Shown here piece after piece: positions 20,671 through 32,819 of a stretch of 41,212 nucleotides of DNA. The notes under the pieces were generated by a model, which worked only from the letters and a program-made list of their open reading frames with translations, had not been told where the DNA came from and made no database searches. Source of the stretch: Paracoccus sp. (in: a-proteobacteria) (GTDB lineage: Bacteria; Pseudomonadota; Alphaproteobacteria; Rhodobacterales; Rhodobacteraceae). The position numbers and the translations under genes are program-made. Each line of letters begins with the position of its first letter. Within the stretch, counting starts at the first letter, position 1. The stretch lies in the NCBI GenBank assembly GCA_030538425.1, contig JAUNTZ010000022.1, forward strand, positions 1 to 41,212, in the 5' to 3' direction.

Positions 20671-20730
20671 AGCCTTTTCATCCGGGCGATTTGCGCCTAA
20701 ATGAGCGCCAATCGGAACAGGAGAAACGCC

Positions 20731-21519
20731 ATGCAAAGCGCGAATATGAACGTGATGATCAAGGCCGCGCGCAAGGCCGGGCGTTCACTGGTCAAGGATT
20801 TCCGCGAGGTCGAGAACCTTCAGGTCAGCGTCAAGGGCGCGGGCGATTTCGTCAGCCGCGCCGACCGCGAGGCCGAACGGATCATCAAGGAAGAACTCCG
20901 CAATGCGCGCCCGACCTATGGCTGGCTGGGTGAGGAAACCGGCGAGGAGGCGGGCGAGGACCCGACCCGCCGCTGGATCGTGGACCCGCTGGACGGGACG
21001 ACGAATTTCCTGCACGGGCTGCCGCATTGGGCGATCTCGATTGCCTTGGAACATAAGGGCGAGGTGGTCGCGGGCGTGATTTATGACGCCGCCAAGGACG
21101 AGATGTTCACCGCCGAAAAGGGCGCCGGGGCATGGATGAACGGTCAGCGCCTGCGGGTCTCGGGGCGCAACCGGATGATCGAGTCGATCTTCGCCACCGG
21201 CGTGCCTTTCGGCGGTCGCGGTACGCTGCCCGCCACGCTGAAAGACCTGGCCCGGCTGATGCCGCTGACCGCCGGGGTCCGCCGTTTCGGCGCGGCGGCG
21301 CTTGACCTCGCCTATGTCGCGGCCGGCCGCTACGAGGGTTATTGGGAACGCGGCATCAACGCCTGGGACGTGGCCGCGGGCGTGGTGATCGTGCGCGAGG
21401 CGGGCGGCTTCGTCGAGGCGATCCGAGGCGATGGCAACCTGATCGAGACCGGCAACATCGTCGCCGCCAACGCCGCGCTGTTCCCCCAATTCGCCGAGGT
21501 GATCCGCACGCGGGATTGA
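20731..21519 (+). CDS. suhB: Inositol-1-monophosphatase family protein (SuhB-like)
   Basis: A 262-residue Mg-dependent, Li-sensitive-type phosphatase. The metal-site motifs are intact: GEETGEE (about 67-73), WIVDPLDGTTNFLHG (about 82-96, with D85 and D88), and NAWDVAAGVVIVREAGG near the C-terminus. It could dephosphorylate inositol-1-phosphate or related sugar phosphates; SuhB in enterobacteria also has an antitermination role, not inferable here. The ATG at 20731 has AGGAG at the right spacing; an upstream in-frame ATG at 20701 lacks one. It follows metR in the same direction after 60 bases. Downstream is the repeat region without genes. Confidence 0.92.
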   Translation: MQSANMNVMIKAARKAGRSLVKDFREVENLQVSVKGAGDFVSRADREAERIIKEELRNARPTYGWLGEETGEEAGEDPTRRWIVDPLDGTTNFLHGLPHWAISIALEHKGEVVAGVIYDAAKDEMFTAEKGAGAWMNGQRLRVSGRNRMIESIFATGVPFGGRGTLPATLKDLARLMPLTAGVRRFGAAALDLAYVAAGRYEGYWERGINAWDVAAGVVIVREAGGFVEAIRGDGNLIETGNIVAANAALFPQFAEVIRTRD

Positions 21520-21693
21520 GGTGGTTGAGGCGGTGTTTGATGGCCGTGTGCTGATGTAATGTGTTGAGCGGCCTGAAATGGCTGGTTTCGGGCGGGTTTT
21601 TCGAGGCCGCTGGCGATATGCACAGAAATGGTGTCGGCGCGACCGTTCCAACGGCGGACACCGGGATCGGATGAAGCTGGAAAAGTCGCGCGG
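21520..21693. other. Non-coding stretch after suhB
   Basis: No convincing gene. It holds a 7-bp perfect inverted repeat (GCGGCCT 21568-21574, AGGCCGC 21604-21610) with 29 bases between, including TTTCGGGCGGGTTTTT. It could be a weak terminator region for suhB. The 3'-end repeat array begins just after it. Confidence 0.4.
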
Positions 21694-21775
21694 CGAGCCC
21701 CCGGTAAGCGCCGCCGTGGTCACGCGGGTCTGGCGGCGCAGGTCAATGTGGGGAAGGTTTCTCGCGGCGAGTAGG
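21694..21775 (-). repeat. Array copy A
   Basis: On the minus strand this reads LLAARNLPHIDLRRQTRVTT, colinear with the gene end PLAAKELASMGLRRQTRATT, then AALTGG after loss of four codons (YLAA). The reading phase is preserved across the deletion. The flank GCCTACTCGCCGCGA also matches the gene. Confidence 0.7.
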
Positions 21776-21916
21776 CGGCAGCTTCCAGAAGCGGATTGGC
21801 GAAGAGAGTTGCAGGCTTTCCGCATATAATGGTCGAAAGCAGCTAGTTCCGATCAACTATCCGCCACACGGCGCTTCCCCAGGGCGATCTCGCCCACCAA
21901 CCAACCGACGCGCCGC

Positions 21917-22020
21917 TCATCCCCGCCGCAACCGCACCGTCAGCACCTCCAGCTAAAGCGCCGCTGTGGCCGCATGGGTCTGGCGGCGCAGGCCCATGCG
22001 GGAAAGGTTTCTCGCGTTGT
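21917..22020 (-). repeat. Array copy B
   Basis: On the minus strand this reads RMGLRRQTHAATAAL, then an in-frame stop, then LEVLTVRLRRG and a stop at the same place as in the gene. It is a clear but inactivated copy of the glycosyltransferase C-terminus. Confidence 0.7.
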
Positions 22021-22156
22021 GATGGCAAGTCGCTGAATGGCAAAGAGAGTTAAAGATTTTCCGTGTTTCAGCGTGCGAAACAGCGAGTTCCACTCAACCA
22101 TCCGCCACTCGGTTCTTCCCCATCGCCATCCGACCATCAACCGACCGCCGCGCCCC

Positions 22157-22259
22157 TCACCCCCGCCGCAACCGCCCGGTCAGCGCCGCCAGATAAAGCG
22201 CTGCCGAAGTCACGAGAGTCTGGCGGCGCGCGCCCATGCGCGCAAGGTTTTGCGTTGTG
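22157..22259 (-). repeat. Array copy C (identical C-terminus)
   Basis: On the minus strand this reads RMGARRQTLVTSAALYLAAL followed by TGRLRRG and TGA. The last 14 residues ALYLAALTGRLRRG are identical to those of the intact gene, and the sequence past the stop (TGAGGGGCGC) is also shared. It is the least decayed copy. Confidence 0.75.
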
Positions 22260-22383
22260 ATAGCCTGTATTTGAATGACAAAGAGGGTTGAAGATTTCCC
22301 GCGTTTCTGCTGCGAAACGGCCAGTTCTGCTCCAATATCGGCTACTCGGTGCTTCGCTTTCGACCATCTCACCCACCAACCCA

Positions 22384-22460
22384 CCGCCGCAAGTGCCCGG
22401 TCAGCGCCGTGATATAAAGCGGCGAAGTGGTGACACGAGTCTGGCGGCGCAGGACCATCC
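22384..22460 (-). repeat. Array copy D
   Basis: On the minus strand this reads MVLRRQTRVTTSPLYITALT followed by GHLRRW, running past the stop position of the gene. It directly abuts copy E with no spacer, so a spacer has been lost here. Confidence 0.65.
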
Positions 22461-22563
22461 CGGCCACGAGCGCCCAGTCAGCGCTGTCAGATAAAACATA
22501 ACCGTGATCCTGCGTGTCTGCAGAAGCGGAGCCGTGCGGGCAGGGCGTCTCGCGTCGCGCAGG
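22461..22563 (-). repeat. Array copy E
   Basis: On the minus strand this reads RTAPLLQTRRITVMFYLTAL followed by TGRSW, in phase with the gene end LRRQTRATTVALYLAALTGR but more diverged. Its spacer towards the intact gene nearly duplicates that of copy A. Confidence 0.6.
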
Positions 22564-22705
22564 CGGCTTCCAGAAGCGGAATGGCGAAGAGAGTTGCAGG
22601 CTTTCCGCATATAATGGTCGAAAGCAGCCAGTTACACTCAAATACTCGCCAAGCACTGCTTCGCACATGGCCCTCTCGCCCCCCAACCAAAAGGCGCGGC
22701 GCCCC

Positions 22706-23635
22706 TCACCCCCGCCGCAACCGTCCGGTCAGCGCGGCCAGATAAAGCGCCACCGTGGTCGCTCGGGTCTGGCGGCGCAGGCCCATGCTCGCAAGTTCTT
22801 TCGCGGCGAGTGGGCCGGGGCGGCGTAATGCCTGGGCAAAGCGGTCCAGCAGCGCGGCGTTTTCATCAGTCAGCATCTCGCGGCAAGCCGCTAGCGCCGC
22901 GTTATTTGCCGCCAGCCAGTCGCCATAATCGCCGCCGAAAAGTCCGCGCAACCGTTCGGCCATCGCCCTGAACGTATCGTTGCGCCCCTTCAGGTTGCCC
23001 TCATGCTGCCGGTAAAGCACCGTTTCCGCATCGTCGCGGATCACGCGCCCGCCCGCGCCACTCACCAGAAGATAGGCGAACCAGTCATGCGCCTCGATCC
23101 CGGCCGCGATGGCCGCAGGGGCGGCACGCGCATACAGCGCCGCGGCCTTGGGCGACAGCAGCGCCGTGTTCCCGCCGATCACGCATTGCACAAGCGCGTT
23201 CGCAAAATCGAACGGGCCGCTATAACGCGCCGACCCGGCCAGCGGGCGCAGCGCGCCGTCGCAAATCGTCGTGCGCGATCCGTAGACCGCAAGTCCCGGC
23301 TCAGGCCCCATCGCCGCCACCGCGCGGGAAAGTCTGTCCGGCTGCCAGACATCGTCCTGATCCGAAAAGGCCAGATATTCGCCCGGCCGGACGCCCCCGG
23401 CCATCGTCAGAAAATTCGCCGTGGCCCCTTGGCCCGGCCCATCCACCAAGGTGACCTGACCCTTGGGCCGGGTGGCGGCGAAACGCTGTGCGATGGCCGG
23501 GCCATTGTCGCGCGACCCGTCATCCGAGATCACCAGCCGCCAGTCGCGATGCGTCTGGGCCGCGATGCTGCCCAGCTGTTCGGCCAGATGCGCCGCGCCG
23601 TCATATAGCGCAAGCGCGATGAAAACTTGCGCCAT
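22706..23635 (-). CDS. Family 2 glycosyltransferase
   Basis: A 309-residue GT-A-fold glycosyltransferase, similar to rhamnosyltransferase-type GT2 proteins. Seen: VFIALALYDGAAHL at the N-terminus, the nucleotide-binding ISDDGSRDN near 35-43, FSDQDDVWQPDRLSRA near 90-105 (DxD-type metal site), and the acceptor-side EAHDWFAYLL near 180. No membrane segment. Donor and acceptor unknown. The ATG has AAGGGG upstream. It lies 53 bases after fliL on the same strand, so it may be the last gene of the flagellar operon; flagellin or surface-polysaccharide glycosylation is conceivable but not shown. Its last 35 codons are echoed five times in the downstream repeat array. Confidence 0.88.
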   Translation of the reverse strand: MAQVFIALALYDGAAHLAEQLGSIAAQTHRDWRLVISDDGSRDNGPAIAQRFAATRPKGQVTLVDGPGQGATANFLTMAGGVRPGEYLAFSDQDDVWQPDRLSRAVAAMGPEPGLAVYGSRTTICDGALRPLAGSARYSGPFDFANALVQCVIGGNTALLSPKAAALYARAAPAAIAAGIEAHDWFAYLLVSGAGGRVIRDDAETVLYRQHEGNLKGRNDTFRAMAERLRGLFGGDYGDWLAANNAALAACREMLTDENAALLDRFAQALRRPGPLAAKELASMGLRRQTRATTVALYLAALTGRLRRG

Positions 23636-30424: not shown

Positions 30425-31645
30425 TCACTGGCAGATCCGCCAGTCATTCGCGCGCCTGATCACGTCAAGATGCAGGTGGTCGTCATGCGCGGCGTCCGAG
30501 CCGGGGCCAAGCACCGTCGTAAAGAACTGGCAGGCCCCGGCGTGAATATCGCTTTGGAACCGGCCGAGCGGGTCGTTTTCGCGCGGTTCGATCATCAGAA
30601 CCTGACCGTCTGAGAGCCGGATTCCGGCAATATCGACGGCATTGCCAAGCGCATGTTCCGACAGCCGGTCAGTCCCGGCGCGCGGGCGGCAAGCATAGCC
30701 GGGGCCGGTCAGCAAACCCGCAGGACGGGGCGCGCCGTCAAGCTGCGCGGCGGCGGGCGCGACCACCTGATGCGTCCAAAGCGCCAGAGCAAGCGCGGTT
30801 TCGCAACGCAGCAATGGCTCACCTTCGACCGAGAGACCGGGCCGGATCTGCCCAAGCCTGACCGGCCTGAGGATGCCGCAATCGGGGTCGATCTCGGGAT
30901 CAGTGAGCGGCTCGGCACGCCGAACATCCGCGCCCATCACGGTGAGCGCGGCGAGACAGCCGATGAATGAGGGCAGGCTTTCGGATCTTGCCTGCCAAAG
31001 CGGTTCGGTCGGGGTGGGGGTGGCGTCCGCAGGTTCGGCTGACGGTGTGTCTGGTTGAACGGGCGTGGTTGGTGGCCGGTCCGATTGTGGTAGGGCGTTG
31101 CTGTCATCTGGTGCGGGAGTGGGGTCCGCAGGGTCAGATTCCGCAGGATGGGCTGAAGATGTGCTTGGTTGATCAGGCGCGGTTGGTGGCGGGTTCGATT
31201 GGGGCAGGGCGTTGCTGTCATTCGGCGCGGGCGCAGCGGGACTTGAGTCCGAAGGGTCAGGTTCTGCAGGATCGGCTGACGGCCTGTCTTGTTGCGCAGG
31301 TGCGATTGGTGGCCGATTCGATTGTGGCAGAGCATTGCTGCCATCTGGCGCGGTGGGCCCGGCTTCTGCACTGTCAGGTTCTACAGAGCTGTTGGGCGGT
31401 TCTGGCAGGCTCGATTGCGGCACGGCGTCGCTGTCACCCGCCTCATTCCCGGCGGCGGGCGCTTGTCGTTCGGGTCGCGGGGCAGGGGGTGGCGAGGCGG
31501 GCTGCATGACTGCGCCGGGGCGGGGCGCGGGGGGCGCGTTTTCGGTCACGGGTGCTGCCGGACGCGGCGCGGGTTGAGCAGTGGCCCATGCCGCCGCGAC
31601 GCAAAACACCCCGACCGCCGCGATGAAGGTCGGGGTGCGGCGCAT
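30425..31645 (-). CDS. Extensin-like putative peptidoglycan peptidase with Pro-rich repeat linker
   Basis: About 406 residues. A signal peptide (residues 1-20, ending TAQ) is followed by a Pro/Ala-rich low-complexity region of about 190 residues. That region carries at least three repeats of about 36-41 residues, each built on SNALPQSNRPPxAP. The C-terminal 180 residues form the extensin-like domain, with a MepA/LAS-type zinc peptidase pattern: HALGNAVDI and HDDHLHLDV. Such proteins are putative D,D- or D,D/L,D-peptidases of the cell wall. The ATG at 31645 starts one base after the L,D-transpeptidase stop, so the two wall genes are coupled. The call to the family is good; the cut bond is inferred. 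Confidence 0.85.
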   Translation of the reverse strand: MRRTPTFIAAVGVFCVAAAWATAQPAPRPAAPVTENAPPAPRPGAVMQPASPPPAPRPERQAPAAGNEAGDSDAVPQSSLPEPPNSSVEPDSAEAGPTAPDGSNALPQSNRPPIAPAQQDRPSADPAEPDPSDSSPAAPAPNDSNALPQSNPPPTAPDQPSTSSAHPAESDPADPTPAPDDSNALPQSDRPPTTPVQPDTPSAEPADATPTPTEPLWQARSESLPSFIGCLAALTVMGADVRRAEPLTDPEIDPDCGILRPVRLGQIRPGLSVEGEPLLRCETALALALWTHQVVAPAAAQLDGAPRPAGLLTGPGYACRPRAGTDRLSEHALGNAVDIAGIRLSDGQVLMIEPRENDPLGRFQSDIHAGACQFFTTVLGPGSDAAHDDHLHLDVIRRANDWRICQ

Positions 31646-31646
31646 G

Positions 31647-32819
31647 TCAGTTCGCAAGTGCAGGCGGCACGGCCAGCGGGTCTTCGGCCGCCGCGTTCAG
31701 CGCATCGGCCAGCGGGTCGCGGGTCGGAGCGGGCGGCGCGGAGGCCTCGACCGGCGCGGCGGGCTCGGTGGTGGCGGGGGCGGGTTCGGCCGCCGCGACA
31801 GGCGCCGGGGCAGCCGTCGAGCCAAGGCTTGAGCCCTGTTCCAGAAACTCGACTTGGGTCTGGCCGGGGCGCACCATATGGGCCAGCTCTCGCGCATCCC
31901 AATTGGTCAGCCGCACGCAACCGTTTGATTCATTGCGGAAAAGCCGAGAGGGCGTGGGCGTGCCGTGGATGCCGTAAGTGGGCTTGGTCAGCCCGATCCA
32001 GGTATCCCCCACCGGGCCGTTGGGGCCGGGCGGGATGCGCAGCACGCGGTCATTATCGCCCTGCTGGAAATTGACCGACGGATTATAGGTATAGTCGGGG
32101 TTCTCAGCCACATTCGCGACCTGCATCGAGCCCGAGGGCGACGGCGTCTGCGCCGAGCCGATCGTGGCCGGATAGTTGACCACCATGCGACCGTTTGCAT
32201 CAAAAGCGGCGACGCGGTTATGTTCCTTTTCGATCACGATGCGGGTGACCGTCGCGCGGATGCGCGCATTGGGGCGCATCACGCTGATCGTCTCGCCCGC
32301 CGCAAAGCTGGCGCCGGGGTTCATCGCGGCGATGAAGGGCTCACTCATGTGGAACCGCTCGGCCAGACGCTCTTGCACCGAGGTGTAGCCCAGATGCGAC
32401 ATCTGCGCCTTTTCGGCATAGTCCGAAGGGATCGCATCGACCAGATTTTCGGTGTCCGCGGCGGTGATCGTATAGCTCTGCGTCACCGGATCAGTCGCGA
32501 AATGCTGAAGCTGTTCCCAAACCGCTTCATCCATCACCCCATCCACAGGCAGGCCCGCGCGGCGTTCAAAGGCGGCGATGGCCGAATTGCTCATCCCGCC
32601 GGCCACGCCGTCGATCACGCCGGGCGAGATCCCGGAACGGTCCAGCAGCAGCTGCACCTTGGCGGTGATCGGGGACAGCCCCTGCGGCAGCGGGCCGCCG
32701 GAATAGCTGGCGGCCTCGATCTGGCTGGCCTGAAGCGCCGCAGCCTGCCCCGCGCCGCCCAGCATCAGGGCAAACGCGATGGCGATGAAAGAAAGCGGCT
32801 TTGTTGCGGTCAAGCGCAT
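31647..32819 (-). CDS. L,D-transpeptidase (YkuD) with peptidoglycan-binding region
   Basis: A 390-residue exported protein. The signal peptide spans residues 1-28 (ends QAAA). A peptidoglycan-binding-like helical domain lies near 55-100 (LDRSGISPGVIDGVAGGM), then the YkuD catalytic domain with H285 in YGIHGTP and the catalytic C301 in SNGCVRL. It should form 3-3 cross-links or attach proteins to peptidoglycan. The C-terminal 65 residues are Ala/Pro-rich and disordered. AGGAA lies before the ATG. It is followed one base later by the extensin-like gene, suggesting joint action on the wall. Confidence 0.92.
   Translation of the reverse strand: MRLTATKPLSFIAIAFALMLGGAGQAAALQASQIEAASYSGGPLPQGLSPITAKVQLLLDRSGISPGVIDGVAGGMSNSAIAAFERRAGLPVDGVMDEAVWEQLQHFATDPVTQSYTITAADTENLVDAIPSDYAEKAQMSHLGYTSVQERLAERFHMSEPFIAAMNPGASFAAGETISVMRPNARIRATVTRIVIEKEHNRVAAFDANGRMVVNYPATIGSAQTPSPSGSMQVANVAENPDYTYNPSVNFQQGDNDRVLRIPPGPNGPVGDTWIGLTKPTYGIHGTPTPSRLFRNESNGCVRLTNWDARELAHMVRPGQTQVEFLEQGSSLGSTAAPAPVAAAEPAPATTEPAAPVEASAPPAPTRDPLADALNAAAEDPLAVPPALAN

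Follow-up and report, generated by a model that had tools for sequence, protein, structure and literature searches.

Diverged tandem echoes of gene 3′ ends behind a glycosyltransferase gene and other, unrelated genes of a Paracoccus genome

Why should the DNA behind an intact bacterial gene repeat the end of that gene five times over? The question arises in a contig of Paracoccus sp. (in: a-proteobacteria), JAUNTZ010000022.1 of assembly GCA_030538425.1, whose 41,212 nucleotides are the whole stretch that we analysed and are called the window here; the source genome is a draft of 2.69 Mb that is 87% complete. In this window a GT2 family glycosyltransferase gene and a convergent inositol monophosphatase gene leave a gap of 1,186 bp between their facing 3′ ends, and degenerate direct repeats make up most of that gap. 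An earlier note, made from the letters of the window, had described the repeats as an array echoing the 3′ end of the glycosyltransferase gene and had offered three readings of it: a set of silent C-terminal cassettes, a duplication array under slow decay, or a repeat family that had donated the terminus of the gene. The analysis reported here supports the second of these. We judge it likely that the window array arose by tandem duplication of the GT2 3′ end together with the spacer next to it and has been decaying since, and we find tail echoes of the same kind behind other, unrelated genes of this genome.

Table 1. Features of the array and of the two genes that flank it (window coordinates)
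Feature	Coordinates	Strand	Basis or remark
GT2 family glycosyltransferase gene, intact, 309 aa, source of the array	22706..23635	-	Pfam PF00535 Glycos_transf_2, E 4e-16
Echoed part of the GT2 gene, ~last 36 codons with stop	22706..22815	-	self-alignment
Spacer of unit U1	22565..22705	-	22562-22662 is 86% identical to 21777-21877
Copy U2, truncated, without in-phase stop, abuts U3 directly	22468..22564	-	66% over 109 nt to gene end
Unit U3, tail copy 22384-22467 and spacer; a 21-nt deletion took the stop codon	22262..22467	-	self-alignment
Unit U4, tail copy 22157-22261 with intact ALYLAALTGRLRRG and stop, then spacer	22022..22261	-	self-alignment
Unit U5, tail copy 21917-22021 with in-frame TAG; far end of spacer ~identical to U1 spacer	21777..22021	-	self-alignment
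Copy U6, truncated, last unit of the array	21706..21776	-	82% to gene over 71 nt
Convergent neighbour, inositol monophosphatase family	20701..21519	+	Pfam PF00459, E 7e-66

Self-alignment confirmed the array as it had been described. Five direct, degenerate copies of the last 24–36 codons of the GT2 gene lie downstream of it in the same orientation and with a period of ~240 bp (Table 1), and a related spacer is recognizable in four of the six units when the gene's own unit is counted, namely behind the gene, U3, U4 and U5. The best self-alignments pair 22502–22805 with 21714–22016 (77.5%, E 3e-65) and 21956–22458 with 21706–22237 (74%, E 2e-92). One of the five copies, U4, has a usable end; the other four are spoiled by an in-frame stop (U5), a deleted stop (U3) or truncation (U2 and U6). 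Both the exact ending of U4 and the internal stop of U5 (copies C and B of the earlier note) were read correctly, but the statement that U6 (its copy A) had lost exactly four codons was not confirmed, because recognizable homology stops at ...GCGCTT and the apparent deletion varies with the alignment chosen. Phase, which was said to be kept in every copy, is indeed kept within the short aligned cores, but not beyond them, given the deleted stop of U3 and the truncation of U2 into U3. The tail cores of U3–U5 contain no indels and the spacers contain several; this absence may simply reflect how short the cores are, and for pieces of about 100 bases the argument that neutral debris should lose phase fast is a weak one. 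As to the claim that no recombinase lies nearby, 16 of the 44 genes called in the window were scanned, and none of these is a recombinase gene.

As to which came first, the gene end or the repeats, the comparison with other species is informative. Twenty-nine GT2 relatives could be aligned at 43–61% identity, the nearest being 61% identical (no close genome turned up in the relative searches), and all have a similar C-terminus; across the resulting 30 sequences from throughout the genus, our own included, this terminus is conserved rather than variable. Because it is genus-wide and ancestral, the gene gave rise to the repeats and not the reverse. The array DNA itself is found at one place in its own 87%-complete genome, apart from one 30-nt match. 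U4 and U5 differ by 20% and 22% from their own gene and by at least 35% from the gene of any other species, and in a tree built on 81 columns they group with their own gene with modest support (86/72), while the copies of congener G031 group with the G031 gene (97/87).

A repeat was present behind the GT2 orthologue in 3 of 40 loci examined, those of the window and of congeners G031 and G029; this set of 40 includes one sequence twice (L012 and L048), three broken or partial matches (L022, L031 and L032) and three loci with fewer than 900 bases behind the gene (L015, L019 and L047). Two copies (84–86%) are present in G031; in G029 the repeat amounts to a single partial copy, at 76% over 89 nt. 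The unit in G031 is ~256 nt and nearly all coding, in contrast to the ~240 nt of the window unit with its ~140 nt of spacer. Since the units differ in extent, the three cases look like separate events at one gene, and, on these sequence grounds, the window and G031 arrays look to be of separate origin. A tail-profile search of 125 genus genomes gave a match in 110 and clustered tail copies in 2 of those 110, a count that leaves out two adjacent matches in G013 (halves of one gene) and from which the partial copy of G029, missed by the profile, is absent. Directly behind its glycosyltransferase array G031 also carries a nine-base repeat, CGTGCCTGT, in about four units (L104:5970–6003), and elsewhere a further 3′-end repeat cluster (L141) that the echo test does not count. 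G062 carries two copies, 98% identical to each other, of a 601-bp stretch that includes the glycosyltransferase tail, each at the start of a contig (L109:1–601 and L110:1–601); what precedes the tail reads like the end of a putative nucleotidyltransferase gene.

Echoes of this kind are not peculiar to the glycosyltransferase gene. When part of the last 200 bases of a gene was sought in the gap downstream of it, 16 of 811 genes in 0.99 of the 2.69 Mb were found to have such a tail echo, compared with 2 of 811 that have a head echo, that is, part of their first 200 bases copied in the upstream gap (p 0.0013). Counted per usable gap, echoes occur in 16 of 400 downstream gaps versus 2 of 478 upstream gaps (p 0.0002), and 15 of the 102 sampled downstream gaps of at least 200 nt hold one. 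Chance is excluded as their source because the rate for mismatched pairs is tiny: 14 of 324,000 wrong tail–gap pairs reach the threshold versus 17 of 400 own pairs among the same 811 genes. Extrapolation gives ~43 genes with tail echoes genome-wide, from a sample of 61 stretches that covers ~37% of the genome, is not random (mostly contig starts) and was annotated with a simple gene caller (L182, which overlaps L106, was dropped). An earlier version of the scan returned 8 of 496 genes, including a clear echo at L127 3008–4012 that the faster version behind the count of 16 of 811 misses; the weakest of the own-genome echoes are those of L162, L209 12691–13647 and L127 351–1232.

All 15 of the other echo genes match Pfam, and all fall in different families. 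They include genes for chorismate synthase, phosphate acetyltransferase (Pta), a 2-hydroxyacid dehydrogenase, a sodium:sulfate symporter, LysR and AraC regulators, a short-chain dehydrogenase, an exonuclease, formate-tetrahydrofolate ligase, a methyltransferase, a CoxE-like protein, a glyoxalase, a peptidoglycan-binding protein, FolB and TerB. Offsets range from 104 to ~290 bp and identities from 97% to ~66%, and several arrays have three to five units. Behind the chorismate synthase gene its last 35 codons are echoed twice, once with an identical protein sequence and once with a 12-nt deletion, and the pair looks like a young version of the window array. No sequence common to the 16 echo arrays was found at E 0.01, nor was one found among the 15 noncoding repeat clusters of the first 594 kb, 7 of which are purely intergenic. 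A sixteenth candidate cluster, at 31026–31455 of the window, was removed from that set as it lies inside ORF 30425–31657 (-); it is a 123-bp tandem repeat, coding and not itself an echo.

Several of these loci deserve mention in their own right. Between pta and ackA lies a three-unit array (134 bp; L133:9490–9907) that holds both the pta tail and the ackA head and is counted as a 3′ and a 5′ echo alike. Behind the formate-tetrahydrofolate ligase gene (L206:5332–7059 and the following 1 kb) stands a five-unit array with a period of ~270 bp, in divergence and size much like the window array. Two co-directional genes are separated by an array of diverged 66-bp units, about 12 in number (L170:8952–9852).

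Tail echoes are far commoner in this genome than in the relatives sampled. Outside the stretches chosen for their glycosyltransferase gene, 15 of 772 genes have one here and 2 of 941 in 11 congeners (p 0.0003); the congener figure divides into 0 of 626 genes in six genomes and 2 of 315 in five more, and the two echoes concerned (L227 and L238) are weak, at 63% and 75%. In E. coli K-12 the count was 0 of 145 genes. A loss of mismatch repair or slippage control was considered as the cause of the excess and discarded, since mutS, recJ and polA are present and no repair loss was seen among them. In genome G015, a 43-bp unit that is self-complementary in parts occurs six times in a convergent gap (L156:11834–12108).

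The changes that the copies have accumulated indicate how they have been treated by selection. Copies kept for use should avoid changes at codon positions 1 and 2. Eight arrays have two echoes or more; in these, copy-private changes are spread over codon positions 1, 2 and 3 as 52/57/55, and gene-private changes as 6/6/16; the even distribution in the copies and the third-position-heavy one in the genes indicate that the copies are neutral and the genes constrained. Pooled differences between copies are not fully even (0.208/0.237/0.290 over the same positions in 8 arrays), and changes between gene and first echo number 58/46/99; in G031, private changes are 8/6/3 for copy c1 and 3/3/7 for copy c2. 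If younger copies inherited synonymous changes that the gene lineage had already gathered, the third-position excess would be explained, although some exchange with the gene may still have taken place. That the extra copies diverge neutrally, with this mild third-position rise, is what minisatellite decay entails, and the copies also lie head to tail and are confined to one locus, as befits tandem duplication and minisatellite decay.

We therefore favor a decaying tandem duplication and envision its course as follows. A slip of replication or recombination would duplicate a ~240 bp segment spanning the stop codon; since the gene remains complete and gains no more than a dead tail downstream, selection would tolerate the event. 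This first repeat would enable further copies by unequal exchange, a step that fits the patchy identities between units. The dead copies, as the counts above show, have then changed almost irrespective of codon position and have lost stops and ends, while the gene stays constrained. The same has happened behind the 15 other unrelated genes in the sampled 37% of the genome, at 97% to ~66% identity, and, as a separate event, behind the orthologue of one congener; the arrays have no sequence in common and would need no dedicated enzyme. Duplication across the stop codon predicts an intact gene, repeats of tail and spacer in one direction, decay, occurrence in any gene family and longer gaps. Inspection by eye of 11 unit edges revealed no clear microhomology or common junction motif. 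For the eightfold excess of 3′ over 5′ echoes, the reason that we prefer is that 3′ ends may be tolerant of such events, with promoters damaged when they occur at 5′ ends.

That excess could also be mechanistic and not a matter of survival only, if a lineage-specific process favored the duplication of gene 3′ ends, for example through breaks where transcription terminates, through collisions downstream of genes or by priming at the 3′ ends of mRNAs. The 16:2 ratio of 3′ to 5′ echoes, the higher density here than in congeners and the share of long downstream gaps affected all point in this direction, but the features that one would look to for a cause do not. The 3′ flanks of echo genes are no more structured than others (median MFE -20.4 for 15 echo genes versus -21.7 for 252 other genes, p 0.69) and convergent neighbours are no commoner (4 of 15 versus 81 of 252, p 0.78), so that echo genes resemble other genes in both respects and neither hairpins behind the stop nor convergent orientation can be named as the cause; moreover, the purely intergenic clusters indicate that duplication is not confined to 3′ ends. 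We regard such a process as decidedly improbable. The broader proposition that an active process in this lineage re-copies 3′ ends, and that a substantial share of the long intergenic stretches downstream of its genes has grown from the tails of those genes, we consider unlikely, if still to be reckoned with.

In the cassette reading, the copies would be a store from which recombination replaces the end of the gene and so varies the glycosyltransferase. Their shared orientation and register and the intact end of U4 suit such a store, and there are traces of conversion-like events: a spacer block of U1 and U5 is identical at 57 of 58 positions, with 0.78 elsewhere (permutation p 0.0006), which implies that copies have recombined or re-duplicated pieces, and the G031 array is patchy, with a gene/c1 block in the coding part at p 0.001. 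The block in the window, however, lies in the spacer and is the sole significant one there; permutation detected no significant block of exchange with the window GT2 gene, the tail block shared by the gene and U4 reaching p 0.17–0.21. The G031 block leaves some room for exchange with the gene end in that congener, and part of the G031 signal (c1 versus c2 at the unit start) may be a duplication junction rather than exchange. Against a store of gene ends stand also the even codon positions, the four unusable copies out of five, the C-terminus conserved across the 30 aligned genus sequences, and the like arrays behind housekeeping enzymes, where end-swapping makes little sense. In the pilE/pilS silent-cassette system of Neisseria, partial 3′ gene copies lie in the same orientation, as they do in the window, but here no variable terminus was seen, the copies are free of protein-level constraint and many unrelated genes are affected. 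Orphan Rhs/CDI C-terminal tips, likewise displaced C-terminal fragments behind a parent gene, differ from one another and come with immunity genes, whereas the window copies are decayed duplicates of one end. Silent cassettes, as the earlier note had proposed them, are thus unsupported, and we think them very unlikely here.

More doubtful again is a functional 3′ element, such as an array of terminators or regulatory RNAs. The position of the arrays behind stop codons would agree with it, but the interval 21400–23000 gave no Rfam match up to E 1 and a single terminator-like site, outside the array, versus 1.8 in shuffles; the arrays are without a common sequence and the copies decay. A dispersed repeat family, whether it sits next to the gene or, as had been suggested, furnished its terminus, has nothing in its favor but the repeats themselves and is refuted for the sequence of this 87%-complete genome: the array occupies one genomic place apart from the 30-nt match, the genus as a whole has the terminus by ancestry, the nearest relative of U4 and U5 is their own gene, and the arrays behind the other genes share no sequence.

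Decaying tandem duplication has its nearest counterparts, by analogy, in two known kinds of repeat, bacterial minisatellites and the tandem repeats of Borgs. Minisatellites and intergenic VNTRs of bacteria, as portrayed in excerpts of PMC2884548, are direct tandem copies, often intergenic, that arise without a dedicated element, and the echoes share these traits; they differ in their units of ~100–290 bp, which are old and diverged (66–97%) and include the tail of the gene next to them. Borg repeats, according to excerpts of PMC9879509, originate independently at many loci, as the echoes appear to do, and are virtually absent from host genomes; those repeats are perfect and recent, with units of 18–21 nt in the examples given, whereas the echoes are long, degenerate and in a bacterial genome. 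A narrow search of the open literature, at the level of titles and the beginnings of abstracts, yielded, among the entries listed, no description of a genome with diverged 3′-end tandem echoes.

Overall, these results urge caution in reading partial copies behind a gene, which, even when in phase, need not be silent cassettes. What began as a curiosity of one gene becomes a measurable genome-wide trait, and its overrepresentation, both in this one lineage and at the 3′ side of genes, is directly testable. Tail echoes provide a graded series, from 97% to 66% identity, of the birth, multiplication and decay of tandem duplications, in which the parent gene serves as an internal control.
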